DNA of 64,000 bases, from positions 1 through 64,000 of the forward strand of contig CALCCD010000015.1 of assembly GCA_937899645.1 (NCBI GenBank), read 5' to 3'. Source of the stretch: an uncultured cyanobacterium. Its GTDB lineage: Bacteria > Cyanobacteriota > Cyanobacteriia > Cyanobacteriales > Geitlerinemataceae. The notes beneath the pieces were generated by a model. The model ran no database searches. It was not told the origin of the DNA and worked only from the letters and a program-made list of their open reading frames with translations. This document shows positions 25,102-48,334 of the stretch, piece by piece (position 1 is the stretch's first letter; the number at the start of each line of letters is the position of its first letter). A program made the translations under genes and the position numbers.

Positions 25102-25144
25102 ATGCCAGGACCCGGACTTGAACCGGGGACACGAGGATTTTCAA
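25102..25144 (-). repeat. attL: 3' fragment of tRNA-Phe
   Basis: This 43-bp block is identical to 48292-48334. Read on the minus strand it runs from the anticodon loop (TTGAAAA) through the T-arm (CCCGGTTCAAGTCCGGG) to the discriminator base. The anticodon-stem 5' side and D-arm are absent, so it is not a functional tRNA. Confidence 0.95.
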
Positions 25145-25199
25145 CCCCCTGAACCAGCGCCAGAACCCGCCCCTCGTGGGGGTTTGAGGATGACCATTC

Positions 25200-25225
25200 T
25201 TTTTGCAGACGTTTTTGGAGACATT
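25200..25225. promoter_or_regulatory. Candidate integrase arm-type site, left end
   Basis: TTTTTGCAGACGTTTTTGG followed by AGACATT repeats the motif found inside the right end (48175-48205). It lies 55 bp inside attL. Confidence 0.5.
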
Positions 25226-26776
25226 CTAGCGGAAGAATTGGACATTTTCGGGCGCTTCGTCCCGCCACATCTCGATTTTGTCTTCAGACTGGACGTAACT
25301 CAGCCCTTCGGAAACGAGACGCCCCTCTTCTTCCGTCGTTAGGGTCAAACTCACCGTGTACGCGAGCGCGGGGTAGACCCGAATTCGCCGCAGGCGTAGA
25401 GGCACGTCTCGACTGGCGAACTTGCGGGTTTCGCCGACGTTGATATTGAGAATAGTATCCTCGGAGAGAGCGGCCAGAGCTTCGAGCCGCTGCACGGCGA
25501 GATCCTCGGTCGCCCCCTTCACCGTCATCTTGCGACGCGAACTAAGTCGAGCTGTTGCGTGGGCCACCCCAGAGTCGAAGCCACCTGCGCCGCCCATCGC
25601 CGTTTTTACTTCCTGCCACGAGATATTCCGACGCGGGTTCGGGATCGCGACCTGGCGTTTGATTGCACGAATCGACCGAAAATCGGCGCTGGCCTGAGTC
25701 CAGGGTGGTTTGGGGACGGAGTAGTAAAACAGGGTTAGGCGGCGGCGCTGGTGCTCCGGAGTCCACAGCCCCTCACCTTCCACATTCCCCACGTAGCCCA
25801 CGTCGCGATTACCTAGGAGCTGGGCCGTGGCCATCGCGCCGTGGACGATCGACGTAACCTCGCGAGGCGTGCCGTACACGCGGATACTCTCGTCGGGCGC
25901 TTCGCGATCGGGCTGAATCTCAATCGCGCGATCGGGCGCTGTGGACTGCGCCGCCAGGTGAGAGTTGACGGCATCGTCAATATCGGCGCTGACGATAAAC
26001 GTGCCCTCAGAGAGAGCGTCCCAACCTTCCTCGACCAACGACTCCCAAAAACCGCGCCAGCCATTGCTGCGGATTTTCTCGATACGACGATCGCGCCAAC
26101 TGGCAATCGTCCAGGAGTCGGCCCCTTTTGCGCCCCAAGACTGCTTCACGAACCGAGCGCCCCGCTCGCCTAACACCGACTCGAGCGCGCCCTGAGGCAG
26201 TCGCTTAATAAAGGCTCGCCCCGCCATATAGGCCCGAGCCGCCGCGTTCGAGCCCTGAAGGAATCCAATACCCCGCAGCGTCGCCTTTGTCTCACCCCAA
26301 AGCTCCTCAAGCGCCTCAGAGCCAGACGACTGGAGGATTGACGTAGCCAACGCTCGACCGCCGATCACAGGCACGACCATCGACACGCCCGCGCCGAGCA
26401 ATATCGACGCGCCCCATCCAAGGCCGCGACCCGCCAGCCCGCCAACGAGGCTCAGCGTGGCGTCGTTGCGAGCCTGGATCGCCTGCTTGATCTCATCGTC
26501 TGACGCCTGCCAGTCGAAATTTGCGAGAAAATCGAGCGCCGACACGAGCCCGCGCAGAATCGCTCCAGCCCCGCGCATCAGCCAGTTCGCCAAGCCTGAG
26601 AGAGCCCGACCGAGGAAGCCGACCACCCGACCGAAGAACCCCGAAATTCGCCCGAGTAAACCACCCTGCTCGTTGCCCTTCAGAACCGGAGGGGTGAACT
26701 CGATCGTCTTCAGGCCGTTGCCGTCGGACAGAGCCTGCCGAATTTTTCGGCTGTTGCGGAAGAACCTTAGCGCCAT
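25226..26776 (-). CDS. Unrecognised 516-aa element protein with membrane-active-looking N-terminus
   Basis: I do not recognise this protein. Residues 35-90 are a Gly/Phe/Leu-rich amphipathic stretch (GLLGRISGFFGRVVGFLGRA, then WLMRGAGAILRGLVSAL). A hydrophobic Gly-rich span at about 110-150 (GGLAGRGLGWGASILLGAGV) could insert in a membrane. The C-terminal half is soluble and beta-rich (LRLRRIRVYPALAYTVSLTLTTEEEGRL). It is the last gene of a leftward operon, overlapping its upstream neighbour by 10 bp. A structural, membrane-penetrating or transfer-pore role is possible, but this is inference. Confidence 0.8.
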   Translation of the reverse strand: MALRFFRNSRKIRQALSDGNGLKTIEFTPPVLKGNEQGGLLGRISGFFGRVVGFLGRALSGLANWLMRGAGAILRGLVSALDFLANFDWQASDDEIKQAIQARNDATLSLVGGLAGRGLGWGASILLGAGVSMVVPVIGGRALATSILQSSGSEALEELWGETKATLRGIGFLQGSNAAARAYMAGRAFIKRLPQGALESVLGERGARFVKQSWGAKGADSWTIASWRDRRIEKIRSNGWRGFWESLVEEGWDALSEGTFIVSADIDDAVNSHLAAQSTAPDRAIEIQPDREAPDESIRVYGTPREVTSIVHGAMATAQLLGNRDVGYVGNVEGEGLWTPEHQRRRLTLFYYSVPKPPWTQASADFRSIRAIKRQVAIPNPRRNISWQEVKTAMGGAGGFDSGVAHATARLSSRRKMTVKGATEDLAVQRLEALAALSEDTILNINVGETRKFASRDVPLRLRRIRVYPALAYTVSLTLTTEEEGRLVSEGLSYVQSEDKIEMWRDEAPENVQFFR

Positions 26777-28662
26777 AGATCGCCCCTCTCGTTCTCGAGG
26801 TTGACCTCCCGCGCGAATGGGCGGGGCGTACGATCGTTTGCCTTAAAAAATCCCGAATCGTTGATGGTCGAGAGTAGGTCACGCAGGTTATCGGCAGCGC
26901 CTGGGTCGTTGGGGTCGAACGAACCGCCGCCGAACATCCGCTTTGCTCGTACCAGCGAGTCAATCAGGTCGAGGACTTGCGTCGGCGATCGCGTCAGCGC
27001 ATTTCGCGAAACTTCTGTACCAGCCAGGATTAACGACAGCGACTCGAACACCGAACCCTCCTCCTGCTCTTCCATCACGAGCAGCGTTCCCTCCGCTTCC
27101 TGATAGAGATCGAGCAGCGTCTTCTCGTCCGTATCTTCCAGGTCGAAGGCGTACGGCACTTTCTTCTCGACCTGGTTCCCTCGATAGCCCAAATAGCCAG
27201 CGTTGGCAGCGGCGTAGCTTTGGGCCACGATCGCGGCATTTTTTGCTCCGACAATCTCGAAAGCTAGCCGGGGGATTGCGCCGGTCGTCATAATCGAATT
27301 CTGCATCGACTCAACCGACAGCGAGTACAGCTCAGCCATGAACTCGGCCATGTTCGGCACGACGATCTCCTCCTCCTCTTTCTCTTTCGTGAGGGGATTC
27401 GTATCGGCAATTTTGATTTTGACGGGGAACTGGCCGATAGTGGAATCGACCTGGTCGAGCAGGTGGGCCAACTGTTGGGGAAGAGAGGCCACGCGGACGG
27501 CGATCGCGTCGGGGTCGCCCTCACCAGGAGGCCGAAGCGTGAGAGCGCGCGGATCGAGCGGGCCGGGCAAGTCTTCCTCACCGGAGTAAGTGAGGTTCGG
27601 CAGGATCGCAGGAAACTCCAGATCGAAAACCCCCAGGTACTGGAAGACGTGATTTAGCAAAAAGAGCTGGTTCACGCCGCTGACGATATCTCGCGTCGTC
27701 CCGATAATTCTGAAGCCGAGCGGACTGTCAGGGTTGGGCTTCACGTCAATCGCCTGATATTCCTTCTCGCCCGCCCCAGAGCTGACCGAAATCGGGTAGC
27801 TCTCGCCCCTGCCGTGGATTTCGAGCAACGCGGAGGAAGTCGTCGGGGCAAGGTTCCCGAAGGTGCTCCACCCGCCGTAAGTCACGTACTCTGGAGCGCT
27901 TGCCCCCGTCGCGATAAACGAGGCGAAAACCGAGCCAGAATACCCCCACGCCGCCCGAGTCGTAGCGGCATCTTCTCCCATCAACCCCTGGTAGAGGCGA
28001 TCGCGTACAGCCCCAGCGGGATCGTAAATCGCGTGCTGCGCGGCCAGGGAGAGCTGAGGGTTTAGGGCCGGGAGCAGCGCGACAGCCGCCGCTTGAACCT
28101 CGGCGCGCTGCTCGGGCGAGGCGAGCCGGAAGGTGGCCTCGAGGCCGAGCCCACCACCGACGGCGGGCAGGTTCAGCGTCCCGAACGGCGTCGAGACAGC
28201 CAGAGAATCGATCCAGCTCACCCCACCCTCGACCGCCGCCGTCATCACCTCGTCTACCCGTATCGTCTCGCGTTGAATAGCCGCCGACAGCGCCTGAGCG
28301 TCCGCGCCCCAGTCGAAAAACGGGAGATCGATCCGGGATATCAACCCAGAGGCGATCGTGTTGTCAAAGAACGCCGACGCCCCCGAGAGCAAGCCCCGAT
28401 GTCGAGTCCCCGTGTAGGTGGCCATGACGTGACCTCGACCGCCCCTCAGGCCAAAACTGGCGGTGTCCGGCGTGCCATTCCAGTCGTTGATATCGACGCC
28501 AGGAGGCGGGTCTTCAGAAGCCGGGATGCCGGGAGTAATTTCTACGGCCAGATTTAGCCCAATCGTCACCTCTGTCGCGCCCAGCTCGCCAAGAAGGCGC
28601 TCGCGGTCGGCGGCAGAGGGCAAATTGACGGTCAGCGGCCTCAGGACGTAATTACGCGGCAT
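26767..28662 (-). CDS. Unrecognised 631-aa element protein, paralogue of the next gene
   Basis: The function is unknown. The C-terminal third aligns by eye with the 618-aa neighbour. Both have a D-S-x-I-G-x-FP start, then an AQSYAAANAGYLGYRGN core with AFD and acidic residues after it. The N-terminal part is different and contains no signal peptide. Middle blocks such as FGNLAPTTSSALLEIHGRG look beta-rich. The gene starts inside the stop of the upstream gene (TGATG). Its size and the tandem pairing suggest structural or surface proteins of the element. Confidence 0.8.
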   Translation of the reverse strand: MPRNYVLRPLTVNLPSAADRERLLGELGATEVTIGLNLAVEITPGIPASEDPPPGVDINDWNGTPDTASFGLRGGRGHVMATYTGTRHRGLLSGASAFFDNTIASGLISRIDLPFFDWGADAQALSAAIQRETIRVDEVMTAAVEGGVSWIDSLAVSTPFGTLNLPAVGGGLGLEATFRLASPEQRAEVQAAAVALLPALNPQLSLAAQHAIYDPAGAVRDRLYQGLMGEDAATTRAAWGYSGSVFASFIATGASAPEYVTYGGWSTFGNLAPTTSSALLEIHGRGESYPISVSSGAGEKEYQAIDVKPNPDSPLGFRIIGTTRDIVSGVNQLFLLNHVFQYLGVFDLEFPAILPNLTYSGEEDLPGPLDPRALTLRPPGEGDPDAIAVRVASLPQQLAHLLDQVDSTIGQFPVKIKIADTNPLTKEKEEEEIVVPNMAEFMAELYSLSVESMQNSIMTTGAIPRLAFEIVGAKNAAIVAQSYAAANAGYLGYRGNQVEKKVPYAFDLEDTDEKTLLDLYQEAEGTLLVMEEQEEGSVFESLSLILAGTEVSRNALTRSPTQVLDLIDSLVRAKRMFGGGSFDPNDPGAADNLRDLLSTINDSGFFKANDRTPRPFAREVNLENERGDLWR

Positions 28663-30518
28663 CAGTCGTCACCCTCCTGACCCTGGCGCTGCCCCTCTTC
28701 GCTTCGATACTCAGCCGTGGCGTCACGCGCCTCGGGCGTCGAGTCGGGCGGCGTCGTCTTCCAGGAGCCATTGCCGATCGCGGCGATCAGCTCATCAAGA
28801 CTTTCCCCCACGTCGCCATCTACAGCCTGGGAGACGAGCTGAATCGCGGCCCGAAGGCTCGACGGCGACTCAGCCTTGAGCCCGCGCACAATCTCGACGG
28901 CAACCTGAATCTGGGATAGATACCCCGCAACGGTTTCTGTGTCCTCGGAGCGCCAGACGGGGATGGAGGCGACACTGCCGCCGAGGATCGTCGCCGCCGC
29001 TGAGTCGGAAAAATCGAAGGCGTTGACAAGCGCCTGATTGACGAGATTGCCCCGATACCCCAAAAAACCTGCGTTCGCCTTAGAGTAGCTCTGCCCGACA
29101 GTTGCGGCGATCTTCGCCTTAATCGCCTCGGAGCCGCAGCGTAAGGTGGCACTGAAGTTCGCCTCGGTCTGGGCCGCGATTTGGTGCTGCATCACCAGCA
29201 TGTCGAGCAACATCTCAGCAATCGACTCGTAGCCAGCATTCGAGACGTTAAAAGCTCCACCGACAGGAGCCTTGACGGTCAAATTCGCGGGGAACAGCCC
29301 GATTACCGAATCGAACTGCTCGTACATGGTCTTAATCATCTCGACCAGCGATCGCACCTCGTACTCCGAGCGCGCCTCTCCCGTGGCGGTCGCCTTCAGG
29401 CCCGGCAGCTCTCCCGGCAGCTCGCTATGGGCCACGCCGGTAATCTCCGAGATGTCGTACACGACATCCTGGGTCTCGGAGTCCAGCTCTAGGTTCTTAG
29501 TGGTGTTGCGGAGGAGCTTGCGAAGCATCGCCTCCATATCGCGGCAGTTGCAGCTCATACCGTCGTCATCTCCTGGGTCGTCGTTACGGGGCGGGTCGAT
29601 CGCGGGCTCGTCACGCTCTGGCCATTCGCAGCGATCCTCCTGGCCCGCACGTGGGATGACATCGAAGCTGTAGGTTCCCACCGAGTCAATCTGAACCCGT
29701 TCGCCGCCGCACTGAGACCAGGTACTCCCGGCGGAGCTGATAATCGTCCTAAAGATATTTCGGCCAGTGCGACGGGAACGCCAGCCCCAATACTGCGCCG
29801 TGGACTCCCACCCCGATCGGTCGGTTCCGTTGCGAGCAGACTGCGTCTCGACGAATTCCTCGTGTAGGTCCGAACGAAACCTGTAGCTGACGATCCGCCG
29901 TCGCCCCTGGTCGTCCGAGCGAGAGGCGTCTATTGGCCCTCGAAAGTAACCGGAGCCATCAGCCTTAGCGATCCAGCCGCAGCCCCGCCCAGACTGAGTG
30001 ACGACCCCCTCTCGATAGATCGTCACCGAGCAACCCGTCGGGACGATCGGCCCAACCCGGCCACCGTCACTACCGCCACCGCCACCGCCGCCGCCACCGC
30101 CGCCCTCTGGCGGCTGCGGGTAGATTTCCTCAATCCAATCGGGCAGCGTGCCGTCGGCAACGGGGTCGATTCCAATCGGGTTCAGCACGTCAATTACGTC
30201 ACCCAGCATCTCGACGATCAGATCGCCTAGCGATTGGTCGAAGTCGTTCCGCGTCCACTCGTAGCCGATCTCGACCGCATTGAGGAACCGAGCCAGCGCT
30301 TGGCGGCGCGCAGCATCCGCCAGCGATGACAGCGTACCGACGACATCCCCAAACGATGGCGCGCGATCGAGGACGTTATTGAAGCGATCCATCCAGCCCT
30401 CGCCCAGCTCCATCGACTCCAGGTCGAACAGGTTCGAGGCATCGGGAACCGTGTCGTATCCGCCAACTGGCAGAAGGACTTCGGGCAAGATTTCGGTTTC
30501 CTCAAAAGTCGGGGACAT
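28662..30518 (-). CDS. Unrecognised 618-aa element protein, paralogue with polyglycine linker
   Basis: Residues 1-145 are helical. An uninterrupted run of about eleven glycines follows PEGG near residue 150, encoded by GGC/GGT codons at about 30075-30112, and looks like a flexible linker. A beta-rich domain with CSVTIYREGVVTQSGRGCGWI and several Trp follows, with a CNC motif near 320. The C-terminal region has QSYSKANAGFLGYRGN, shared with the 631-aa protein. No database family is recalled. The linker between two folded parts recalls spike or fibre proteins, but this is inference. Confidence 0.8.
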   Translation of the reverse strand: MSPTFEETEILPEVLLPVGGYDTVPDASNLFDLESMELGEGWMDRFNNVLDRAPSFGDVVGTLSSLADAARRQALARFLNAVEIGYEWTRNDFDQSLGDLIVEMLGDVIDVLNPIGIDPVADGTLPDWIEEIYPQPPEGGGGGGGGGGGSDGGRVGPIVPTGCSVTIYREGVVTQSGRGCGWIAKADGSGYFRGPIDASRSDDQGRRRIVSYRFRSDLHEEFVETQSARNGTDRSGWESTAQYWGWRSRRTGRNIFRTIISSAGSTWSQCGGERVQIDSVGTYSFDVIPRAGQEDRCEWPERDEPAIDPPRNDDPGDDDGMSCNCRDMEAMLRKLLRNTTKNLELDSETQDVVYDISEITGVAHSELPGELPGLKATATGEARSEYEVRSLVEMIKTMYEQFDSVIGLFPANLTVKAPVGGAFNVSNAGYESIAEMLLDMLVMQHQIAAQTEANFSATLRCGSEAIKAKIAATVGQSYSKANAGFLGYRGNLVNQALVNAFDFSDSAAATILGGSVASIPVWRSEDTETVAGYLSQIQVAVEIVRGLKAESPSSLRAAIQLVSQAVDGDVGESLDELIAAIGNGSWKTTPPDSTPEARDATAEYRSEEGQRQGQEGDD

Positions 30519-30526
30519 CGGCAGGT

Positions 30527-30727
30527 TTAATCGCTGGCGTAGTTGGCGTCGGTGCTGCGAACCTCAAGCGGGAAGAGGTGGCGGCGCTTGTCGCGGTTGA
30601 TGGCCTGACGCGCCAGATATGCCGCCTTTCGGCGTGGCGTACGGCAGTAGCGCGGGTACTGAACCCGTGGGATCGGATTATCGCGAACGGGCGATCGCCG
30701 GTTGTCAAATATCGCGAGGTTGAGCAT
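30527..30727 (-). CDS. Small basic protein, 66 aa
   Basis: The start ATG at 30727 overlaps the stop of the upstream gene by one base, so translation is probably coupled. The protein is Arg-rich (RRSPVRDNPIPRVQYPRYCRTPRRKAAYLARQ). The next gene starts 8 bp after its stop. This tight packing is the main evidence that it is real. Function is unknown; nucleic-acid binding would suit its charge. Confidence 0.6.
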   Translation of the reverse strand: MLNLAIFDNRRSPVRDNPIPRVQYPRYCRTPRRKAAYLARQAINRDKRRHLFPLEVRSTDANYASD

Positions 30728-31497
30728 TAGCCGCACACCGTAAGAGAGAGGGTCGCATTTGACTCGCTGACGGCGTACAGCGCGCCCGAAAAGCCGTGGA
30801 GGTCGTAACTCGACCCTTTATCGAGCAGCAGCACGCCGGAGCCCTGGGACGGCTCGGAGTCGAGGCCAATCCACGTCTTGACGCTGGACTGAGACGAGAT
30901 TGCAAAATACGATCGCCCGACCTGGGCAGGGGCGATCCGAATCGGGCTCGCGCCGACCGAGATAAGCGCCTCGGTGCAAGTCGAGAACGACCCAGGATCG
31001 CCAAAAGCAGACCCGCCGCCGCCGCCTTCCTCCGCAACTGGAAGTTCGACGACGCCGCACCCAAAAACAACCAGCTCGTCATCGGCTTTTAGTCCGCCGT
31101 GACCCACGTCTCGAACCCTCGCCCCAAGCTTCACCCCCGGCCCGATCGCAAAGTCGCCGTTATCAGTAAAAAACTGCATCAGGTTCAGAGCGTAAGACGG
31201 CGGGCGGTTCAGACAAGAAACGCGAGACAGTTCGAGCCACTCATCATCGACCGACTGCAAAAGCTGCAACTCAACGCGGGGAGATTCCCACTCGACCTTA
31301 CGGATAGCTTTAATCCGCTCGGCTCGTGTCATCTCGGGCTCCAGCTCGGGAATCTCCGCCGGAGGCAAAGACGAAACGGCAATTCTTAACCGCAAAGACT
31401 GGAGATAGCAATCCCCCTCCTCGCCATGCTCAAAAAACGAGATTATTCCGCCACCAGACGCCCCGTAAATCCGCTTTTGCGTAGAGAATGTCGGCAT
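30727..31497 (-). CDS. Unrecognised 256-aa element protein
   Basis: This is the first gene of the leftward block ending at 25226. I start it at ATG 31497 (MPTFSTQKRIYG). In-frame ATGs at 31521 and 31542 would overlap the start of the divergent gene at 31520. A Gly run (EEGGGGGSAFGDP) at about residue 165 splits it into two beta-rich halves, each rich in Ser/Val. No family is recognised. Confidence 0.7.
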   Translation of the reverse strand: MPTFSTQKRIYGASGGGIISFFEHGEEGDCYLQSLRLRIAVSSLPPAEIPELEPEMTRAERIKAIRKVEWESPRVELQLLQSVDDEWLELSRVSCLNRPPSYALNLMQFFTDNGDFAIGPGVKLGARVRDVGHGGLKADDELVVFGCGVVELPVAEEGGGGGSAFGDPGSFSTCTEALISVGASPIRIAPAQVGRSYFAISSQSSVKTWIGLDSEPSQGSGVLLLDKGSSYDLHGFSGALYAVSESNATLSLTVCG

Positions 31498-31519
31498 AGA
31501 AACAGCGAGGATAAGCACC

Positions 31520-31993
31520 ATGTCGAGCTTCAACCCAGGCAACAGCAGCCTGCAATCGGCGACCCGAGAAGATGCGTTTCTGGAGTCATTGCAACTCTAT
31601 CGCAAAAACCTCAATGACGACGCATTGGCAGACATTGAATTCACAGTAGCGGAGAACTTAACCCAACTCCGAGTTAACGCCATCATCCCGATTGTCTCCA
31701 CACCTTCAGCCACTGGGACTCTAGCCATTGAACCAGTCGAAGAAAGCTCGTTCTCCTGGCAAAGCGACCCGACATCTGACGCAACGGCTTCGACTCTTAT
31801 CGGTCAGTTTTTCCTAATAACAAACCAGCTAAATACTTCGGCAGGAAATAACCAAGAAGAGGGCGTGGGCGACCCAATGCAGCTTCAAATCAACACGGAC
31901 AACGGGACGGCAACCATTGCGGCTCGAATAACGCTAGAAGATACCGACGAGCCCTACGGTGGGCTGGCTTTTTCGGCGAAAGAGTTCACGTAG
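31520..31993 (+). CDS. Unrecognised 157-aa protein, paralogue of the minus-strand gene at 33238
   Basis: It starts at ATG 31520 with GAGGATAAG before it. The N-terminus (NPGNSSLQSATREDAFLESLQLYRKNL) matches the other protein's DTGNSSLSSATYESALAEALFLYRSNL, and both end in beta-rich halves with GDPMQLQINTDNGTATI or GDPVSMSIDTDDETVTI. It interrupts two leftward gene blocks while pointing right. Its codon use is more AT-rich than its neighbours'. A small beta-sandwich structural protein is possible but unproven. Confidence 0.75.
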   Translation: MSSFNPGNSSLQSATREDAFLESLQLYRKNLNDDALADIEFTVAENLTQLRVNAIIPIVSTPSATGTLAIEPVEESSFSWQSDPTSDATASTLIGQFFLITNQLNTSAGNNQEEGVGDPMQLQINTDNGTATIAARITLEDTDEPYGGLAFSAKEFT

Positions 31994-32036
31994 GGACGCC
32001 AGGAAGCCAAGCAAAAAGCGAGGCAGAGACCTCGCT

Positions 32037-32408
32037 TCAAGACTTTTCTATTACGACCGAGACCGACAGCGGTTCCGGTCGCCTTACTTTTGGGTATCGA
32101 TAGATATCGAGACTCCTTCGCGTAATTCCGCTGGTTTGATAGCCGGGTGGAAAGGGCAGGGTCACGACCCGTGGCTCGGGCGAGTCGTCGATCCAGATCA
32201 ACTTATCCTCGCCGATCTCAGTCCCGCCGCCGTCGAGATAGTAGACGGGGCGCAGGACGATGCCGCCAGAGTGACGCTTCTTCCAATCCGCCCAGTTATC
32301 GACGGTGAACTGAAGCCGGAACCGTTCGGAAAATTCAACCTCGGCGGTACGTATCCAGTCGCGAAACGGGAGGTCCAGCGTAGCGAAGGCTTCCCAGGTT
32401 ACGGGCAT
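32037..32408 (-). CDS. Unrecognised 123-aa element protein
   Basis: This is the last of four leftward genes that overlap by 10 bp (32399-32408) or lie close together. The protein is rich in aromatic and beta-forming residues (WADWKKRHSGGIVLRPVYYLDG) and has no membrane segment. The function is unknown. Such overlapping small genes of even size are usual for structural or assembly blocks in mobile elements. Confidence 0.65.
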   Translation of the reverse strand: MPVTWEAFATLDLPFRDWIRTAEVEFSERFRLQFTVDNWADWKKRHSGGIVLRPVYYLDGGGTEIGEDKLIWIDDSPEPRVVTLPFPPGYQTSGITRRSLDIYRYPKVRRPEPLSVSVVIEKS

Positions 32409-32626
32409 TCCTCGAAATCCTCGCCTTGCGTGACCTCATCGTATTCGCCACCGCCCAGGTACTCGTCAAGCCGTTCCGGAGTCGCGGCTTCGAGAACGCC
32501 GCGCTCGCTCAAGACGTAGTACTGGGCAGTCGAACCGGGCGGCAGCGATGAGTGCAGAATATCGCTAAAGCCCGGATCGCCTGGAAGCATGATCAGCCGT
32601 CCGACGGTGGCACTGTTTACGACCAT
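32399..32626 (-). CDS. Unrecognised 75-aa acidic element protein
   Basis: It overlaps the genes on both sides by 10 bp, which supports it as coding. The protein ends in an acidic tail (GGGEYDEVTQGEDFEECP). The N-terminal part has GRLIMLPGDPGF and AQYYVLSERGVLEAAT. No family is recognised. Confidence 0.6.
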   Translation of the reverse strand: MVVNSATVGRLIMLPGDPGFSDILHSSLPPGSTAQYYVLSERGVLEAATPERLDEYLGGGEYDEVTQGEDFEECP

Positions 32627-33207
32627 CCTGCTGGTAACGTAACGCCATCGGAAATCATGGTCGAGACGGTATCGACATCGCCCGTGCCTCCGCCCTCGAT
32701 CGCCTTCCGAGCGCGCACAGGAGAAAGGATTTCCGTGCCGTCCGTGGCGATGATTGAGTTAGGAGACAAAATCCCCTTGACCGTCGCAGGCATGACCTGA
32801 ACCCCGAGCGCTGCGAGGTCAGTAGCCCCGATCTTGTTGCGGACTTCGACGGGCTGACGCCAGCAGTAATCAACCCCGCCTACGTCGATGAACACCATGA
32901 CCGACTTCTCCGAGGCAGCAGGCCGCGCAGGGGCTACCTCACGCTTAATTGAACGGAGGGCGGGGTTGGTGAGTTGCCCCTTATCGACAAAGGATGTGAC
33001 GCCAGAGGTCTTAATTTGAGCGCGGGCAGGCTTAGGTCGATCGGTGCCGAAGACGACCGGCTTGGCGAGCGTAGCCCCCTCTACATCGGTGTGACCGAAG
33101 ATGGCTCGATCGGCGGCAGCGAGAGGAGAGTTCCAGCCGTAAAGGACGGTTGCAACATTCTGTAATCCAACGAACACAGGGGTCCGATCGCGATATCTGT
33201 TAGGCAT
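32617..33207 (-). CDS. Unrecognised 196-aa element protein
   Basis: It begins MPNRYRDRTPVFVGLQNVATVLYGWNSPL and has beta-rich blocks such as VMVFIDVGGVDYCWRQPVEVRNKIGATDLAALGVQVMPATVKG. There are no membrane segments. It is coupled to the 75-aa gene by a 10-bp overlap and lies 30 bp after the paralogue gene ending at 33238. It is probably in the same structural block. No function can be assigned. Confidence 0.7.
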   Translation of the reverse strand: MPNRYRDRTPVFVGLQNVATVLYGWNSPLAAADRAIFGHTDVEGATLAKPVVFGTDRPKPARAQIKTSGVTSFVDKGQLTNPALRSIKREVAPARPAASEKSVMVFIDVGGVDYCWRQPVEVRNKIGATDLAALGVQVMPATVKGILSPNSIIATDGTEILSPVRARKAIEGGGTGDVDTVSTMISDGVTLPAGWS

Positions 33208-33237
33208 TTCTCAGAAAAAATGAAGGACTAGGGGGAA

Positions 33238-33726
33238 TTAGGAAACCGGGGCGGCTTCCTGGAGGTAGTCCTCAATCGAGAACGCGATCGCAGCCCCTGA
33301 GGCGCTGGAAAGCGAGCAGTTAACGTCAATCGTTACCGTCTCGTCGTCCGTGTCGATCGACATCGAGACCGGATCGCCGATAACACCGGCCAGAAGGTCT
33401 CGCCCTTGGATCGTGTGGGCGATCGCCATAATTGCGCCGGGAAGGGTCGCGGCCTGAACGTCGCTGACGGGGTCGGGAGTGAAGCTGAAGCCGTCATCCG
33501 TCTCGTCAAGAAGGCTCGTTGTCAGGACGCCGTTTCCGTCCACTTCTGAAGTGAGGGGCAGTACAGCCAAAATTCGCAAGCTGCTCGCGTTCCCCGTGAA
33601 GGTTAGCCCCACGGAGCCTGCTGCATCAGACTTCAGATTCGATCGGTAAAGAAATAGCGCCTCAGCGAGAGCGCTTTCGTACGTTGCGCTAGACAGAGAC
33701 GAATTGCCGGTGTCGATAATTGCCAT
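33238..33726 (-). CDS. Unrecognised 162-aa protein, paralogue of the gene at 31520
   Basis: The start is ATG 33726 (MAIIDTGNSSLSSATY); the longer frame upstream looks like intergenic DNA. It shares the first 35 residues and the GDPxxxxIDTDD region with the plus-strand protein at 31520-31993. The C-terminus (CSLSSASGAAIAFSIEDYLQEA) also matches in layout. It heads the leftward block to 32037. Duplicate structural subunits are one explanation. Confidence 0.75.
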   Translation of the reverse strand: MAIIDTGNSSLSSATYESALAEALFLYRSNLKSDAAGSVGLTFTGNASSLRILAVLPLTSEVDGNGVLTTSLLDETDDGFSFTPDPVSDVQAATLPGAIMAIAHTIQGRDLLAGVIGDPVSMSIDTDDETVTIDVNCSLSSASGAAIAFSIEDYLQEAAPVS

Positions 33727-39773: not shown

Positions 39774-40083
39774 GACAACTATAACCATCGAGAAATCTGC
39801 GGTCAAGGGGTTGACGTGCCTTGACTAGCGATTTATCGTTGGTTTTGTAGACGACAGAACGCCAGTGATCCACCTGGCTGGTGATTGAGATCACGGGTTA
39901 ACAAATCGTCTCACGGTCGCTCCAAGTTCAGGGCGCAAGTCACCGCTAGGTAACGCACTTAGGAGGAAAAGCTCTTGCTCTAATCCACGAATCCGAATTC
40001 ATACCGACGGGGGCGAGACGCGCAGAGTGGGCGATCGTCCCCCGAACAAATCCCGCAAGTACACCCAAAATCACGGACACCAG
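39774..40083. other. Divergent control region between repressor and early genes
   Basis: The region has no gene. It includes a palindrome GTCAAGG (39802-39808) and CCTTGAC (39819-39825). The inner TTGACG could be a -35 box for a promoter directed either way. A second AT-rich stretch follows near 39830-39850 (ATTTATCG...TTTTGTAG). The remainder up to 40083 shows no structure I can identify. Confidence 0.55.
39802..39825. promoter_or_regulatory. Candidate repressor operator
   Basis: GTCAAGG and CCTTGAC are exact 7-bp inverted repeats, 10 bp apart, around GGTTGACGTG. They lie 29 bp upstream of the repressor start, as expected for autoregulation. Confidence 0.55.
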
Positions 40084-40458
40084 ATGGAGAACATTCAGGA
40101 GATAGAAGCGCTCGTCACCGCCCGGTTCGCGCAGGAAGACGAGCCGATGGATCGAAAGTTCGAGTTTCTCTCGACGTGCCTAGAGCAGGCGGCTGAGTGC
40201 CTCGATCGTCGCGACGTTGAGCGGGCTCAGGCGGAAACTGCCGGACTCGATCCCAGCGAGTGGCCCCCGTCCGCGAACGAATACTTTGAGTCGCTCTTGG
40301 AGCTGGCCGAAGAGCTGGGCTATCCCCTGTTCGCCTCTCTCCGCCACGGTGATGTTCGCTGCATCGCTTTCAAGAACAAGGTCGTCAGCTTTTCCTGGTT
40401 CAAGCCCTCTGATGTCGATGGGAGCTTCGACCTGCTCTGCATTGGACGGGTCGCCTGA
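40084..40458 (+). CDS. Unrecognised 124-aa early element protein
   Basis: This is the first gene of the rightward early operon. I start it at ATG 40084 (MENIQEIEALVTARFAQ). An upstream GTG at 40027 would add a basic, unlikely leader. The protein is acidic and largely helical (EYFESLLELAEELGYPLFASL) with a beta end (CIAFKNKVVSFSWFKPSDVDGSF). Its TGA overlaps the next ATG. No function can be assigned. Confidence 0.65.
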   Translation: MENIQEIEALVTARFAQEDEPMDRKFEFLSTCLEQAAECLDRRDVERAQAETAGLDPSEWPPSANEYFESLLELAEELGYPLFASLRHGDVRCIAFKNKVVSFSWFKPSDVDGSFDLLCIGRVA

Positions 40459-40652
40459 TGTCTGCCCGCGCCTGGTTTAAACCCGCCGAAGCCGCCGACA
40501 TGCTGGAGGTTCACCCCTCCACCCTCAAACGCTGGCGACGCACCAATCTCCTCAAATACCGCAAGCACTGGCTACGAAAGCAGCCCAAAGGCTCCAAAGT
40601 TGCGCGCTACGTGTACCACGTCGGAAACATCAACGACTATCTGCTCTCATGA
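40458..40652 (+). CDS. Excisionase-like MerR-type HTH protein, 64 aa
   Basis: The protein is one winged-helix unit: WFKPAEAADMLEVHPSTLKRWRRTNLLKYRKHWLRK, then RYVYHVGNINDYL. This matches the AlpA/Xis type of small DNA-binding excisionases, where HPSTLKRW is the recognition helix. Position in the early operon, opposite the repressor, fits directionality control of the integrase. It is coupled to both neighbours by start-stop overlaps. Confidence 0.75.
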   Translation: MSARAWFKPAEAADMLEVHPSTLKRWRRTNLLKYRKHWLRKQPKGSKVARYVYHVGNINDYLLS

Positions 40653-42633: not shown

Positions 42634-43212
42634 GTGAGCCAAAAAGAAGATTTCCTCAATATTCCCTTCGACGCCGAGGTTGTGTCCGAGTCTCCCGCTC
42701 CTCAGCGGCAGCAGCCCACGCGATCGGCTTCGGCTGGCAGCGGGCGAAAACAGCGAGTTAAGAACCTCTACAAGCAGCAGGGCCGTCAGTTCCTCGACCG
42801 GATGACGGACGAGTTTGCGGGTGGTGTTGGCCGCGCTCAAAATACCGTTTGGGAGGCCGCAGGCGAGAGTCTGGTGGGCCTTCCTGGCCTCCTGCTCCGG
42901 TGTGCCGAGATCGGCGGAATCGTGTTTTTCCTGACCTGGTTTCCGCCCAACGTGTTCGAGCGCTTCGTTCACGACCCCATCGGTCGGCACGTCGTCCAGA
43001 GTGTCGAGCCCGGAGATGGCTTCCGATACAACTACGACGGCAGTCTGCCCTTCCGCCAGCAGCACTGGAGTCTCCAGGCGCGAGTAAACGACCTCGTCGT
43101 CCCCGTCGCCTTCGCTCTGGGCATTTTCGTTATCGTCTTCGTCGAGCCCAAAACCGGCTCGTCTGCTGCCCTGAAATGGCGGCTTCTCGTCGTCCTCTTC
43201 GCCCTGGTGTAG
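42634..43212 (+). CDS. Multi-pass membrane protein, probable membrane half of the FtsK-like translocase
   Basis: The 192-aa protein starts with GTG 42634. After a basic, disordered N-terminus come about three membrane segments: AEIGGIVFFLTWFPPNVF, LVVPVAFALGIFVIVFVEP and the extreme C-terminal WRLLVVLFALV. Its stop is 2 bp before the ATG of the motor gene. In FtsK/TraB-type translocases a short membrane domain precedes the motor in one protein; here it appears to be a separate gene. Confidence 0.65.
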   Translation: MSQKEDFLNIPFDAEVVSESPAPQRQQPTRSASAGSGRKQRVKNLYKQQGRQFLDRMTDEFAGGVGRAQNTVWEAAGESLVGLPGLLLRCAEIGGIVFFLTWFPPNVFERFVHDPIGRHVVQSVEPGDGFRYNYDGSLPFRQQHWSLQARVNDLVVPVAFALGIFVIVFVEPKTGSSAALKWRLLVVLFALV

Positions 43213-43214
43213 TG

Positions 43215-44933
43215 ATGCCTCAAGTTGACCCCCAATCCCTCATCGTCGGGCAGTACCGACAGATACGCGCCGCCGCGCTGGAGCTTGAGGGCGAAGCCGT
43301 TCGCGCCGAGTTCCAGCGCGGAATCCGGCAGGCGATCGCCGACAATAAGCGCGACTACGACCTCGACGCCGACTGGCAGCTCCGCCAGTTCACCCGCTTG
43401 CACGAACACGCCAGCGGCGGCGCTGCCGTCGTTTCTCCTGGTGCTGCTGGCCAAATCCTGGCCCAGGCGATCGCCGTTGCAGAGCTGCCCACGCCCCAGG
43501 CGATCGCGATCGCCGAAGCGCCCAGCCTGTACCGAGCCAAAATCGACCCCGGATCGACCGTCTCGGCCCGTGACGCCTGGAAGTCCAGCGCCGTCTACGC
43601 CGTGGCCTGCAACTTCGCGAAGCGCCTGGATCGGGTCTCCGCCAAGCACGCCCCGCTCGTCAGCGTCCACGACGACGGCGACCTGCTCATCGACTTCGTG
43701 AAGCGCCAGGAGGCGCGATCGTCTGCGCCTTTCGCCCAGTTCATTACGCCGTCATGGATAGCCCAGAACCGGGGCCGGTTCCTGTTCGTCCCCGGTGTTG
43801 CGCCCGACGGCGCGCTCGTGACGATCGACCGCCGCGAACCGGGCTACCAGTCCACCCTGCGCGGCGGCATGTCTGGCTCGGGCAAGTCGATGCTCGAGTA
43901 CTGCGACATTCACCTCCAGTCACTGCTGCTCTCACCGGATGAGTTGCACCTCTGGCTGTCCGACCCCCACTCCGGGCTGAGTCCGTACGAGGGGCTACCA
44001 CACCTGCACGGTCGGGCGATCGTCACCGACGCGATCGGCGCGTTTAACAACGCCGTCGAACTAGTCGCCAAGATGGAAGATCGAAAAGACGTTTTACGCG
44101 CCGAGGGCGTCGATAACATTGACGACTTATCGACGCCATTTCCCTACTGTCTCGGGAAATTTGACGAGTTCAGTGGCACGTGCGACGACCTCGATTTAGA
44201 GCTGGAGGCTATCTCCGATCTTTACCCAGAATATTTCCGCTGGCAAACCACTAAAGACGGAGAGAAAAAACTCGCAAACAACAATCCAAAACCCTCGACG
44301 GTCTTTGTTAAGCTGCTCAGCAAGCTGGCTAAACAAGGCCGAAAGTATGGCGTCCACATCGACATTATCGAGCAGAATCCAAAGGCCGACATCCTGCCCA
44401 CGAACGTTAAAAGCGAGCTGGTCAGCATGGCGCTACGGCTCAAAACCAACGCTTCGAGCAGAGTGATTCTTGACACTCCCGGCGCTGAGAAACTGCTCGG
44501 GAAGGGCGACGGCATCGTGGTTATCGACGGCGAATCGGTTCGCGTTCAGAGCTTGCTAATCGACCCCGACTACGATCGCAAGCTACGCGGGGAATGTCGC
44601 GGGAATTTAGCCGGGAAAGCCTGGGGAATCGCCGGGAATCGCGAGGCATCATCCGACCCGTGGGGAAACGCGGGAAATGTTACGGGGCAAGCTTTCCCCG
44701 CGACGCCAGGAGATTTCCCACTCCTGAAGGACTGGCTTAAAAACCCTCAAAATGGCGGCATCGACAAGCTGGCCACCTGGCTACGTCAGGAGGCCGGTCG
44801 CTCCGGGCGTTCCGAAGCGACGAAAGAGTTGATATTCGTTCTCACGGGAACCCGCAGCAATCGCCACTACCCAGAGGCTGCTGCCATCGTGAGACACCTA
44901 TTCGGAGAAGGAGGTGAGAGTAGCGCCGCCTAG
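43215..44933 (+). CDS. FtsK/SpoIIIE-type DNA translocase motor
   Basis: The 572-aa soluble protein has the FtsK motor. Walker A RGGMSGSGKSM is at about residues 215-225, Walker B-like LGKFDEFSG is near 315, and the family signature SSRVILDTPGAEKLLGKGDGIVV follows near 415-435. The last 80 residues (WLKNPQNGGIDKLATWLRQEAGRSGRSEATKELIF) could be a winged-helix DNA-binding end. Such motors pump dsDNA in cell division, in actinomycete AICE conjugation, or in packaging by non-tailed viruses. The membrane part is encoded by the gene before. Confidence 0.88.
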   Translation: MPQVDPQSLIVGQYRQIRAAALELEGEAVRAEFQRGIRQAIADNKRDYDLDADWQLRQFTRLHEHASGGAAVVSPGAAGQILAQAIAVAELPTPQAIAIAEAPSLYRAKIDPGSTVSARDAWKSSAVYAVACNFAKRLDRVSAKHAPLVSVHDDGDLLIDFVKRQEARSSAPFAQFITPSWIAQNRGRFLFVPGVAPDGALVTIDRREPGYQSTLRGGMSGSGKSMLEYCDIHLQSLLLSPDELHLWLSDPHSGLSPYEGLPHLHGRAIVTDAIGAFNNAVELVAKMEDRKDVLRAEGVDNIDDLSTPFPYCLGKFDEFSGTCDDLDLELEAISDLYPEYFRWQTTKDGEKKLANNNPKPSTVFVKLLSKLAKQGRKYGVHIDIIEQNPKADILPTNVKSELVSMALRLKTNASSRVILDTPGAEKLLGKGDGIVVIDGESVRVQSLLIDPDYDRKLRGECRGNLAGKAWGIAGNREASSDPWGNAGNVTGQAFPATPGDFPLLKDWLKNPQNGGIDKLATWLRQEAGRSGRSEATKELIFVLTGTRSNRHYPEAAAIVRHLFGEGGESSAA

Positions 44934-45209: not shown

Positions 45210-46301
45210 GTGAGTAAAAACAGTCAAGGTCAGCGTCAAAGACTAAGGCGGCGGCAACTGAGGGAGTCGTCACAATATTGGTCGCTGGCGATGTTACGGG
45301 CCGAGGCGATCGAGATCGACCCTCAGCGGTTCCAGTTCAAAATCAAGGCGTCGTCCCAGGGCGCTACGGGGTCGCTGGCGGGCGTCAGCTCCTGGAGTCA
45401 GTCTGCTGAGGGTGTTCTCGATGTTTGGCTCGATCCGGTCAACCTAAAAACTTATGTAGTGAATGGCCACAACCGGCTGGGTCTGGCAAAACGACTGGGT
45501 GTGACCCACCTGCCCTGCAAGTATCTGCGCTCGGAGACTTGGCAGGACGCTCGACGTGATGGTGCGGTGGCCAATCTGGCCAGTGGTAGCGGTTCGGAGC
45601 TGGACGCGGCGCGGTTCTTCCGTGACGACGGCGCGACGGCGGCAGAGTTGCAGTGCCTGGGGCTTTCGCCGCGATCGAAGGTAGTTCGCGACGGCCTGAA
45701 GATATCTCGCCTGCCGAGCGCGACCTTCTCGCTGGCCCTCTCTGGCGTACTGTCACCCGACCATGCCGCTGTGCTGGGCGATTCCGGCCTAAACGAGTCC
45801 CAGCAGATCGGGCTACTCAAGGCTCTAGGAGATGTCGCCCACATGTCGAGACTCGAATTCACCGAGGCGATCGCCGCTTCTCGAGTCGCCGCATTCGAGT
45901 CGTCCACAGAACTAACCCTGTTTGGCTCTGAGACCTTCTCTCGCTGTCTCATCGCAGAGACGGCGAAGGTGCAGTCCTGGGTCGTCTCCCGGCTCTCGCG
46001 AGACCGCCACGCGCTGCGATCGGCAGTCTCCAATCGCGACACCCTGGAGGCCGAAGGGTCGAGCATTGAGTCAAGCCAAGCCGATCTCGCTGCGGGCAAT
46101 ATCGCCGCCATCCTGGAGCAGTTTCACCGCCTCAAGTCAGCACCTGGGCCGATCTCGACTGCGATCGCCAAGGCCGCGCGCAGCTTGGCTTTGGGGCAGC
46201 CCTTACCAGATGCTGCACAGACTGTGATCGACCGACTACTAGGCGAAGCGCGAGTCGCGCTCGCCTCGCCAAAGCCCAGCTTATTTGAACAGAGAAATTA
46301 A
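45210..46301 (+). CDS. ParB/Srx-like N-terminal domain protein
   Basis: The 363-aa protein starts with GTG after AGGAGGAGAAGC. Residues 65-115 have the ParB-like nuclease core VLDVWLDPVNLKTYVVNGHNRLGLAKRLGVTHLPCKYL, where NGHNRLGLAK equals the GxxR-type box. A putative HTH follows (LSPRSKVVRDGLKISRLPSATFSLAL). The C-terminal half is helical. ParB-like proteins segregate or protect DNA. No ParA is nearby, so partition is unproven and a sensor or nuclease role remains open. Confidence 0.75.
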   Translation: MSKNSQGQRQRLRRRQLRESSQYWSLAMLRAEAIEIDPQRFQFKIKASSQGATGSLAGVSSWSQSAEGVLDVWLDPVNLKTYVVNGHNRLGLAKRLGVTHLPCKYLRSETWQDARRDGAVANLASGSGSELDAARFFRDDGATAAELQCLGLSPRSKVVRDGLKISRLPSATFSLALSGVLSPDHAAVLGDSGLNESQQIGLLKALGDVAHMSRLEFTEAIAASRVAAFESSTELTLFGSETFSRCLIAETAKVQSWVVSRLSRDRHALRSAVSNRDTLEAEGSSIESSQADLAAGNIAAILEQFHRLKSAPGPISTAIAKAARSLALGQPLPDAAQTVIDRLLGEARVALASPKPSLFEQRN

Positions 46302-46314
46302 GAGGATTTTTGTT

Positions 46315-46890: not shown

Positions 46891-47311
46891 CTTAACCTCG
46901 CCGCAGGGCGACCTCCGTGTGATTTCACCTCACGGCGGATTCTTGTTAACAGAAGCATTGCTCGACCGCTTTTCCGAGCGCGAACTACGAGCGATCTGCT
47001 TCTTTGCACAAATACCGCTAAAGCGCTTCCGCTCGAAGCAGTCGCTCGTTAGATATCTCGCCTCCAATCTCTGGGTGACGTGGAACTTGCCGGAGAGAGA
47101 AAAGCAAATTACAGACTCAATCTTTCGTACTGAAGGCGATAGGAGTCAAAGCCAAACCACGCGCAATATACGTCCTCATGCACACGGACAGAATGTCCCA
47201 TCATCTTCGCCGCAAATAGACTCGACGCGCCCGCTTCGTGAAGTTTTCGGGCATAGCAATGGCGCAGGTCGTACGCCCGAAATGAAAGACCGTAGCGACG
47301 GCGCTGGGTAG
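46859..47311 (+). CDS. Possible SAP-like small protein overlapping the integrase 3' end
   Basis: A GTG-started frame encodes LLTEALLDRFSERELRAICFFAQIPLKRFRSKQSLVRYLASNL, a helix-loop-helix pattern like the SAP DNA-binding motif. It overlaps the previous gene by 32 bp. The last 203 bp run antisense to the integrase and look low-quality, so the true protein may be shorter or decayed. The N-terminal part is the reason to keep it. Confidence 0.45.
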   Translation: MIGGVGQPPDNLTSPQGDLRVISPHGGFLLTEALLDRFSERELRAICFFAQIPLKRFRSKQSLVRYLASNLWVTWNLPEREKQITDSIFRTEGDRSQSQTTRNIRPHAHGQNVPSSSPQIDSTRPLREVFGHSNGAGRTPEMKDRSDGAG

Positions 47312-48185
47312 AGACTCGGTGGCCCAGGTCGGCGTGAGTCCTGCCCGAGACGGGCGGCAGCAGGATCTCGCGATGGGCCTCCCAGCGCTCGAACAGATCG
47401 CGATCGCAGGGCAGCACTTTTCGCGGCCCCGTCTTGCCTGCCGTCACCACCAGGGCGTCGCCATCGAAGCCGCCAAGCAGTAAAGCCTCGTGGCCCCGAA
47501 GCCCGAACAACAACAGGCGTTGGAACACTTGCCGCCAGAGCCCGTTCGGGATGGCTTCGATCTCCGCGATCGCCTCTTCCCACGTTGGGAGCTTGCGCGG
47601 ATCGACGCTTTTCGCGCTGTACGTGCCGCGAAGCCCGGAGAAATCAGCCTCCAGCCCGGCGAAGCGGGCCAGTAGCTCGAACCACAGGCACAGGCGCTGG
47701 CGAGTGCGGCTACCGGGGTCTGTCGCCTTTATCGCTTTTGTCATCGCTGCCACCGTCAGCGCCCGACTTTTGTCCAGATGCCGGAATGCCGCTCGGGGCT
47801 CAGTCCGATAGGTCGTTTCCGTTTGCGGCGTCCGGGCGCGCCGCTGGAAGTAGTCGCGCTCGAACAACTCGAACCAATCGCCAGCCGTTCGGGCGCGATC
47901 GCGATCGGCCTGGCGTCGCCACTCCTTTAGTCGAAACTCTCCGCGCCCCACGAGGTCGCGAATACGGTGAGCCGTGCCCTCGGCCTCTCGAATCCCCCAA
48001 GCGTGAGCCAAAATTCCCAGGCTGATGTAGCGACGAGAGAGCTTGCCAGCTTTGTCGGGCAGCTTGCCGCGCAGGCGAAGGCGATCGCCTGCCAGCTCGA
48101 TCGCCAGTCCCACCCGAGCGGCCTTGAGACGATCGTTTGCCTCCGAAATTTTCGCCGAGACACTCGCTTTTTTCTTTGCAGACAT
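47109..48185 (-). CDS. Tyrosine recombinase / integrase
   Basis: The 358-aa protein has the catalytic set of phage-type integrases. Arg I is in LLFGLRGHEALLL (about residue 228). The H-x-x-R-like box is in YDLRHCYARKL near 315, GHS follows, and the nucleophile Tyr lies in HEDVY near 340. The N-terminal half is helical with a core-binding domain (WFELFERDYFQRRARTPQTETTYRTEPRAAFRHL). It lies 107 bp from attR and tRNA-Phe, so it drives site-specific integration there. Its start codon lies within the arm-type repeat block. Confidence 0.95.
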   Translation of the reverse strand: MSAKKKASVSAKISEANDRLKAARVGLAIELAGDRLRLRGKLPDKAGKLSRRYISLGILAHAWGIREAEGTAHRIRDLVGRGEFRLKEWRRQADRDRARTAGDWFELFERDYFQRRARTPQTETTYRTEPRAAFRHLDKSRALTVAAMTKAIKATDPGSRTRQRLCLWFELLARFAGLEADFSGLRGTYSAKSVDPRKLPTWEEAIAEIEAIPNGLWRQVFQRLLLFGLRGHEALLLGGFDGDALVVTAGKTGPRKVLPCDRDLFERWEAHREILLPPVSGRTHADLGHRVSTQRRRYGLSFRAYDLRHCYARKLHEAGASSLFAAKMMGHSVRVHEDVYCAWFGFDSYRLQYERLSL

Positions 48186-48205
48186 TTTTGCAGACGTTTT
48201 TTGAG
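48175..48205. promoter_or_regulatory. Candidate integrase arm-type sites, right end
   Basis: TTTGCAGACATTTTTGCAGACGTTTTTTGAG holds two TTTGCAGAC units 13 bp apart. One unit also occurs near attL (25200-25225). The block overlaps the integrase start codon at 48183-48185, which would allow autoregulation. Confidence 0.5.
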
Positions 48206-48291
48206 CCGGTTTAATACGGTTCGATACGGCCTGCCTGCAAAAAAGTGCAAAACAAAACCGCCCACCGTTGATGAGTGAGCGGTTTTAAAAG

Positions 48292-48334
48292 ATGCCAGGA
48301 CCCGGACTTGAACCGGGGACACGAGGATTTTCAA
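48292..48334 (-). repeat. attR: 43-bp direct repeat within tRNA-Phe
   Basis: This block is identical to 25102-25144. It covers the anticodon loop to the 3' end of the intact tRNA, so integration leaves the tRNA functional. Confidence 0.95.

Follow-up and report, generated by a model that had tools for sequence, protein, structure and literature searches.

The window, a stretch of 64,000 nucleotides from an uncultured cyanobacterium, carries an integrated element of 23,233 bp (both repeat copies counted). It is probably a provirus-like representative of a new cyanobacterial family, made up of temperate non-tailed viruses or of episomes derived from viruses. The family is apparently large and undescribed; no description of temperate non-tailed cyanobacterial viruses was found in the literature searched. 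Generic traits of a temperate virus were observed, namely att sites with matching empty sites, genes for an excisionase-like and a repressor HTH protein, and circular forms in relatives.

Integration at tRNA-Phe

Two 43-bp direct repeats bound the element, at 25102–25144 on the attL side and at 48292–48334 on the attR side; the match is exact and far beyond chance. ARAGORN located a single tRNA in the window, the target gene tRNA-Phe(GAA), at 48293–48365 (−). Since the repeat consists of the 3′ part of tRNA-Phe plus one base, the copy at 25102 amounts to a bare 3′ fragment, and only the 48.3-kb end has an intact tRNA. The insertion point is the 3′ end of the tRNA-Phe gene, with attL and attR on either side of the element, and integration leaves the tRNA intact. 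A tyrosine integrase is encoded near the tRNA at 47109–48185 (−), with a match to the phrog_1 integrase profile (7e-11) and a Pfam Phage_integrase match (0.0011) that lies below the Pfam cut-off; in clustering, it groups with the integrases from about 22 element loci. The exact repeats, the intact tRNA opposite a bare fragment, and the neighboring integrase had all been named in the original prediction and were confirmed.

The empty site that had been proposed as a check is present in related genomes. In a sister genus, a relative of 19.5 kb occupies the same tRNA gene in genome G008, and G007, a second genome of that genus, has the empty site: at base resolution, tRNA-Phe is followed directly by the sequence found past the far end of the element in G008 (97% identical). 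In two genomes of the same genus as the window (G001 and G002), tRNA-Phe stands without an element, and the window's next gene is found 0.8–2.5 kb away.

Gene content of the element

The left part of the element holds a module of proteins A, B, fam2, C, D, and E, for which no match was found in Pfam, NCBIfam, or PHROGs; PDB profile searches with the alignments of A, B, fam2, and the s15-type proteins also gave no match. Protein A (516 aa, 25226–26776, −) is the best-conserved module protein, present in 28 of 29 loci. Its N-terminal half is helical, glycine-rich, and membrane-like and its C-terminal half is alpha/beta, which suggests a minor capsid/membrane-penetration or vertex protein. It is followed by the spike/fibre-like B1 (26767–28662, −; 28/29 loci), with a conserved C-terminal domain and a variable N-terminal part, and by its paralogue B2 (28662–30518, −; 7e-15 to B1), which has a poly-Gly linker. 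Relatives of B carry collagen repeats and, in locus L172, PHROG fibre matches. Protein fam2 (30727–31542, −; 18/29 loci) measures 271 aa, a start at the first ATG giving a shorter form; it is beta-rich by sequence and has an exchangeable C-terminal domain, longer in the G056 copy of the alignment, and these features suggest a receptor-binding or turret protein. The remaining module proteins are E (123 aa, 32037–32408, −; about 15 loci), D (75 aa, 32399–32626, −; 15/29 loci), and the beta-rich C (196 aa, 32617–33207, −; 17/29 loci), which appears internally duplicated and is a candidate shell protein.

Structure prediction, originally proposed for all element proteins, was run for A and C, and neither model resembles a solved fold. 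The AF2 model of A (pLDDT 77, pTM 0.42) had no fold match in the PDB by Foldseek, and that of C (pLDDT 84.6) had none in the PDB or BFVD. A capsid protein was identified neither by sequence profiles nor through these two models.

Two s15-type paralogues accompany the module, one of 157 aa at 31520–31993 (+) and one with a core of about 160 aa at 33238–33945 (−). Beyond them lie two element-specific ORFs of 116 aa each, at 34179–34529 (+; no family match) and 34595–34945 (+; no significant match), and a 78-aa protein with a transmembrane segment and a coiled coil (34965–35201, +). The latter is of the same type as fam23/58 of the relatives and is a holin/spanin-like candidate with a weak holin PHROG match (E = 0.06).

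The replication, repressor, excisionase-like, and FtsK-type genes that had been predicted were all supported by profile matches. The primase/helicase (36124–39294, −) combines a zinc-finger-like N-terminal end, a primase region, and DUF3987 (2.9e-36), and also matches PHROG helicase (2.8e-19) and primase (5e-12) profiles. Iteron-like TGTCATCA repeats in both orientations at 36510–36728 mark a candidate replication origin. An Xre/cI-type repressor (39438–39806, −; HTH_3, 3.6e-9) and an excisionase-like HTH_17 protein (40458–40652, +; 9.9e-8) follow. A membrane protein (42634–43212, +) is encoded immediately upstream of an FtsK/SpoIIIE-type DNA translocase (43209–44933, +), whose start was picked by hand, the longest ORF starting at 42849. 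This translocase matches PF01580 (FtsK_SpoIIIE, 5.5e-11), phrog_1358 (2.5e-32), and NF007615 (9e-12), and may be a motor for packaging or transfer.

As originally stated, no terminase, portal, HK97 capsid, tape-measure, or relaxase match exceeded the cut-offs among the element proteins in Pfam, NCBIfam, and PHROGs; VirB4/VirD4 and mating-pair (T4SS) genes were likewise absent from the window element by Pfam and NCBIfam. A "portal" match to phrog_21 was rejected as a composite-profile artefact. It comes from a protein at 45210–46301 (+), with a homologue in the G064 element, whose N-terminal region is ParB-like (PHROG, 0.026). The match covers profile positions 1026–1292 of 1362 residues, an appended domain read as ParB-like, and is therefore no evidence of a portal.

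A family across cyanobacteria

The module recurs with the same integrase type at about 29 loci, and the A profile matches 61 of 291 cyanobacterial genomes. Between att sites, six members measure 15.5–23.2 kb, and the family overall spans 12.5–23 kb. Other members are integrated at tRNA-Phe, Met, Glu, Cys, or Leu, so that the suggested search for the same gene set at other tRNAs was positive for the last four. Identical tandem copies occur in three cases, Calothrix HK-06 (20,327 bp, at tRNA-Phe), Goleter (18,006 bp), and G703 (15,374 bp, at tRNA-Leu). Four members are free circles of 12.5–20.8 kb: plasmid unnamed14 of Tolypothrix PCC 7601 (20,757 bp, NZ_CP064893), pMIC7113.08 of Allocoleopsis PCC 7113 (20,803 bp, NC_019743), and two further circular contigs, one of 18,314 bp that encodes a full-length integrase and one of 12,548 bp. 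The two named plasmids share A, B, fam2, an integrase, and more with the window element; they differ in being free circles with short integrases (~185–208 aa), are typed as non-mobilizable, and have genes mostly annotated as hypothetical.

In relatives, the slot after the module is occupied by interchangeable, non-homologous cell-wall hydrolases of five kinds (matches to PF00959 at 5.9e-49, GH19, CHAP, M15, and a PHROG endolysin at 8.7e-15), adjoined by genes for holin/spanin-like transmembrane/coiled-coil proteins. An endolysin was not recognised in the window element or in G008. The reading of single-linkage family 12 as phage lysozyme throughout was rejected, as it unites different hydrolase types through a shared PG-binding domain. 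Proteins with F5/8C-like and glycine-rich domains are encoded near the module in relatives, and a malectin-domain neighbor is found in pMIC7113.08. The s15 (~160 aa) and fam2 (~270 aa) proteins form a beta-rich small/large pair that is often adjacent; neither is universal. Comparison by hhalign gave no link between the exchangeable families (C/fam22, E/fam10, and fam9/13/s15), so the argument that they fill the same slot stands on gene order and size, not on homology. Proteins placed in the C slot of relatives include fam22, L171 9057–9587, and L172 10547–11113.

Apart from collagen-repeat fibre matches, the module proteins of several relatives gave no tailed-phage match over the cut-off. A search of 50,697 phage records returned no match to the family, and a primase-based scan of genome contigs no relative. 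None was found in IMG/VR either, a weak negative because the scan demands exact conserved peptides. In one host, a CRISPR spacer targets its own resident element; a spacer DNA search against the structural region matched only the low-complexity tract coding for the poly-Gly of B2.

Nature of the element

The original prediction had left two options, an AICE-like element or a tailless virus. Neither outcome named as refuting the prediction appeared: strong tailed-phage matches were absent, and related genomes with an empty site exist. The lysis cassettes, fibre/spike-like proteins, and circles of the relatives favor the virus over the AICE, as does the patchy occurrence of FtsK, the single AICE-like feature. 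The identical tandem copies, the CRISPR spacer against a resident element, and the lack of T4SS, relaxase, and tailed-phage structural matches also speak for the virus. Against it stand the lack of a recognised capsid protein, the lack of a recognised endolysin in the window element and in G008, and the negative searches of phage records and IMG/VR. In addition, the complete elements G064, G029, G056, and G427 have no recognisable FtsK/HerA ATPase, which a packaging-motor role would need. If virions are made, their capsid and spike set would be new to Pfam, NCBIfam, and PHROGs. It is possible, though we consider it doubtful, that the virion architecture falls outside the known realms (not HK97, double jelly roll, or single jelly roll) and defines a new high-rank lineage; such a lineage would be present in about a fifth of the sampled cyanobacterial genomes, and would have been overlooked because its structural genes are in no phage library.

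A sub-case of the virus reading, in which the element comes from an established tailless lineage (Tectiliviricetes with a double jelly roll, or Laserviricetes with two single jelly rolls) and its capsid proteins have changed beyond recognition, is unlikely. Simuloviridae (SNJ1, plasmid pHH205; Laserviricetes) are temperate, host-lysing viruses with circular dsDNA of 16–19 kb, about 30 ORFs, and an episomal provirus (PMC12642351), and the cyanobacterial family resembles them in size, DNA form, and episome/provirus lifestyle. However, they infect halophilic archaea, encode two single-jelly-roll major capsid proteins and a packaging ATPase that were not recognised in the cyanobacterial family, and use an HUH rolling-circle Rep where the window element has a primase-helicase. 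Asemoviridae, the Vibrio NO16-like non-tailed prophages of Tectiliviricetes, offer a precedent for temperate phages that are widespread yet overlooked within a single bacterial group (PMC9966536), but they measure about 10 kb, integrate at dif sites instead of at tRNAs with their own tyrosine integrase, and have a DJR capsid, not recognisable here, and a packaging ATPase as signature genes. The beta-rich s15/fam2 pair and the FtsK/HerA ATPase of some members would suit such a lineage, yet the pair is not universal, PHROG and PDB-profile matches are lacking, and the model of C is unlike known viral folds.

A phage satellite that spreads in the hijacked capsids of tailed cyanophages seems improbable. 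PICI/P4-type satellites and tycheposons share the size, the tRNA sites, the VapE/DUF3987 primases, the HTH repressor, and the excisionase, and the failure to recognise an own terminase or capsid fits as well. Against this stand the large conserved structural-looking module (without a counterpart among 38,880 PHROG families, a set in which tailed-phage parts are represented), the own endolysins, and the autonomous circles in culture-collection genomes; helper-hijacking genes (terminase small subunit, capsid remodelling) were not recognised in Pfam or PHROGs. An equally improbable alternative is an island whose module builds a device for killing or adhesion, either a non-infectious particle or a surface structure (tailocin/GTA-like, or an integrative plasmid bearing an adhesin), and which spreads by other means. 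Fibre-like and carbohydrate-binding domains with lysis genes but no recognised capsid or terminase would fit it, whereas tube, sheath, and baseplate matches over the cut-off are absent, the module is coupled to an integrase of its own or to a circle, and to genes for replication and a repressor, and both CRISPR targeting and tandem copies are seen. An AICE, moving dsDNA by an FtsK/TraB translocase, is very improbable: the window element has the tRNA site, integrase, excisionase, repressor, and FtsK with its adjacent membrane protein, but FtsK is not a family trait, relatives carry endolysins and fibres, the hosts are Gram-negative cyanobacteria, and AICEs, familiar from actinobacteria, are not known from Gram-negatives.

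For the virus reading, the following cycle is proposed. Derepression would allow Xis and the integrase to excise a circle, which the primase-helicase would copy, possibly from the TGTCATCA region. The C-D-E-fam2-B-A module would then build a particle with B and fam2 as exchangeable spikes or receptor binders and with A acting on membranes as a vertex protein or a minor capsid protein. DNA loading may be aided by the membrane-linked FtsK/HerA ATPase where present, and release in relatives would depend on a holin/spanin-like protein and an endolysin of interchangeable type. Virion production would explain several cyanobacterial "cryptic plasmids" and would offer tRNA-specific integrases and 12.5–23 kb shuttle replicons for a group poor in genetic tools. 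The circles in the culture-collection strains Tolypothrix PCC 7601 and Allocoleopsis PCC 7113 make the family directly testable.

The tRNA-Phe site, empty and occupied

The window lies on contig C15 of a cyanobacterial genome of 4.5 Mb (G000) and contains a single tRNA, tRNA-Phe(GAA) (48293-48365, minus strand), whose end recurs exactly at 25102-25144 (43 bp including one flanking base). About 28 ORFs lie in the 23.2 kb between the two repeats, among them a tyrosine integrase (47109-48185), a DUF3987 primase/helicase (36124-39294), an Xre repressor (39438-39806), an excisionase-like HTH_17 protein (40458-40652), an FtsK/SpoIIIE protein (43209-44933) with the gene for a TM protein just upstream, and a ParB-like protein (45210-46301). 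The block at 25226-33945 had no match in Pfam, NCBIfam, or PHROG. The original prediction of an integrated element carrying replication, repressor, excisionase-like, and FtsK-type genes together with many unrecognized ones was borne out. Within the primase/helicase ORF, TGTCATCA-type repeats, about ten in number and facing both ways (36510-36728), form a candidate iteron-like origin. Conservation of the adjoining PPC-domain gene (48509-48949) throughout the family makes this tRNA-Phe a stable landmark. Outside the element, the GC content at 54000-57000 is about 0.51, compared with 0.60-0.63 around it.

The search for an empty tRNA-Phe site in related genomes was successful. The same tRNA-Phe, beside the same neighbor genes, is occupied in G008 (a different genus of the family) by a related element of 19.5 kb whose repeats measure about 50 bp. 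In the G008 congener G007, the sequence found beyond the G008 element directly adjoins the tRNA-Phe (97% identity across 710 bp), which resolves an empty site to the base. G001 and G002, from the window's own genus, also carry tRNA-Phe without the element, and the window's next gene (21386-23416) lies 0.8-2.5 kb off; owing to differences in the intervening sequence, this comparison is less than base-exact.

Distribution and physical states of the family

Searching with the B2 protein gave matches in seven further genomes, and 27 of 386 were hit by a profile of module protein A. The genes in the regions around these matches (up to 40 kb each; 29 loci) were clustered. A was present in 28 by gene calls and in the 29th by profile; gene clustering placed B in 28, the integrase in 22, fam2 in 18, C in 17, and D in 15, and E was found in about 15 after profile merging. 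Replication proteins of the DUF3987 or VapE type and HTH regulators also occur in these loci. A profile built from 30 A sequences matched 61 of 291 genomes (41 of 131 genera), and some of these matches covered no more than the C-terminal part of A; L171 and L172, the two of this kind that were inspected, were both further elements with the same layout. Named hosts include Nostoc, Calothrix, Tolypothrix, Goleter, Desmonostoc, Microcoleus, Okeania, and Xenococcaceae. No match to the family was found among 50,697 phage records.

Besides the window and G008, elements bounded by att repeats were integrated in tRNA-Phe in G029 (18.1 kb) and G261 (20.4 kb; repeat judged a tRNA-Phe end by eye), in tRNA-Met in G064 (16.6 kb), in tRNA-Glu in G427 (15.5 kb), and in tRNA-Cys in G056 (17.6 kb). 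Identical head-to-tail copies of whole elements were observed at tRNA genes or in one contig (L148/L149, L144/L145, and L167/L168): in Calothrix HK-06 (unit of 20,327 bp whose start lies within tRNA-Phe; a single mismatch over 17.7 kb), Goleter (18,006 bp), and G703 (15,374 bp, ending in tRNA-Leu). The gene set occurs at other tRNAs too, where the original prediction had proposed looking. Free circles are Tolypothrix PCC 7601 plasmid unnamed14 (20,757 bp) and Allocoleopsis PCC 7113 pMIC7113.08 (20,803 bp). Two draft contigs, from G058 (18,314 bp, with a full-length integrase) and G356 (12,548 bp, on which no integrase was found), have terminal overlaps of 141 and 127 bp, respectively, and so represent assembler-closed circles. 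Judging from this genome comparison, the family appears to alternate between integrated and circular states.

Short integrase homologues (~185-208 aa) occur in L054 (19147-19701), L092 (2617-3243), and the G045, G183, and G087 elements, both plasmid-borne members included; a resolvase role in place of tRNA integration is possible. In G098, two related elements (L016/L017) with structural arms about 90% identical flank one tRNA-Met in inverted orientation, with only one integrase, located between them.

Module proteins and lysis genes

Module order is largely conserved: fam2 or another exchangeable protein, B, A, sometimes fam9, C or fam22, D or fam10, E, a TM/coiled-coil protein, and a hydrolase. 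In B, the C-terminal domain is conserved and the N part, with collagen repeats or poly-Gly linkers, is variable; the B protein of L172 matched PHROG tail-fibre and collagen-like profiles at its repeats. The C-terminal domain of fam2 is exchangeable, and among the neighbors are an F5/8C-like and a glycine-rich domain protein and, in pMIC7113.08, a malectin-domain protein. Such features are typical of virion appendages. The A model (AF2 pLDDT 77) was half long Gly-rich helices and half alpha/beta, and the C model was beta and fairly confident (pLDDT 84.6); neither resembled solved structures, nor C predicted viral structures. In many relatives (L018, L020, L080, L078, L088, L090, L082, and L086), A is split into two genes, one for each half, sometimes kilobases apart on opposite strands. 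A 71-aa B-related fragment on the strand opposite the full B gene (L012:10447-10662) and the inverted s15 paralogues of the window (31520 and 33238) hint at cassette switching of spike genes.

Various cell-wall hydrolases occupy the slot that follows the module: G025 encodes a T4-type phage lysozyme there (5.9e-49), G020 and G088 a GH19 enzyme, G064 a CHAP protein, and G511a a member of a PHROG endolysin family (8.7e-15), of which G056 and G437 have homologues. The M15 peptidase of G511b lies some kilobases from the module. Next to the module end lie genes for small proteins that combine a single TM with a coiled coil, and a similar TM protein is encoded in the window (34965-35201), in whose element no endolysin was recognized. 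Phage lysis cassettes swap unrelated endolysins beside a holin/spanin-like gene, a pattern that the family's slot resembles.

Viral interpretation and rival explanations

The family has its own integrase, repressor, and replication proteins, along with fibre-like proteins, swapped endolysins, and both circular and tandem forms, and it is targeted by CRISPR; temperate viruses explain this combination best. As originally predicted, no terminase, portal, or HK97 capsid genes were found, nor tail genes, so the family, if viral, would be non-tailed. The weak points of the viral reading are that no capsid protein was identified, that a recognizable FtsK/HerA ATPase, present in G008, Tolypothrix, G087, and G290, is not universal, and that the particles are so far only predicted. 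A phage satellite is improbable, and a particle or adhesion island equally so. The original prediction had left open an AICE-like conjugative element or a tailless virus; the viral branch gained from the fibre-like proteins, endolysins, circles, and CRISPR match. The AICE branch, for which FtsK is the one feature, is very unlikely, since a recognizable FtsK/HerA ATPase is missing from four of the six att-bounded elements that were tabulated.

Two groups come closest in lifestyle to these putative viruses: Simuloviridae, with circular genomes of 16-19 kb and an episomal provirus (PMC12642351), and 'Asemoviridae', temperate phages of Vibrio that are non-tailed (PMC9966536). The signature capsid genes of neither were found in the family. 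Our search of the literature on tailless or non-tailed cyanobacterial proviruses, outside which fell many subscription papers and preprints, found no description of the family.

In G356, a 38-nt spacer matches the primase gene of the resident 12.5-kb circle with one indel (L055:6197-6232). It is the last spacer of an array broken over contig ends (L179:16-53 on C75; L187:11860-12225 on C65), and its flanking 36-nt repeat recurs in the array end on the other contig. The spacer appears to be self-targeting of a resident element, the host having apparently treated the family as an invader. On the same circle, the host tRNA-Phe 3' end is nearly duplicated over 31 bp as a hairpin followed by a T-run (L055:4960-5000), which lies downstream of A in the position of attL in the window; it could be a tRNA-mimicking terminator, but we read it as a relict att site.
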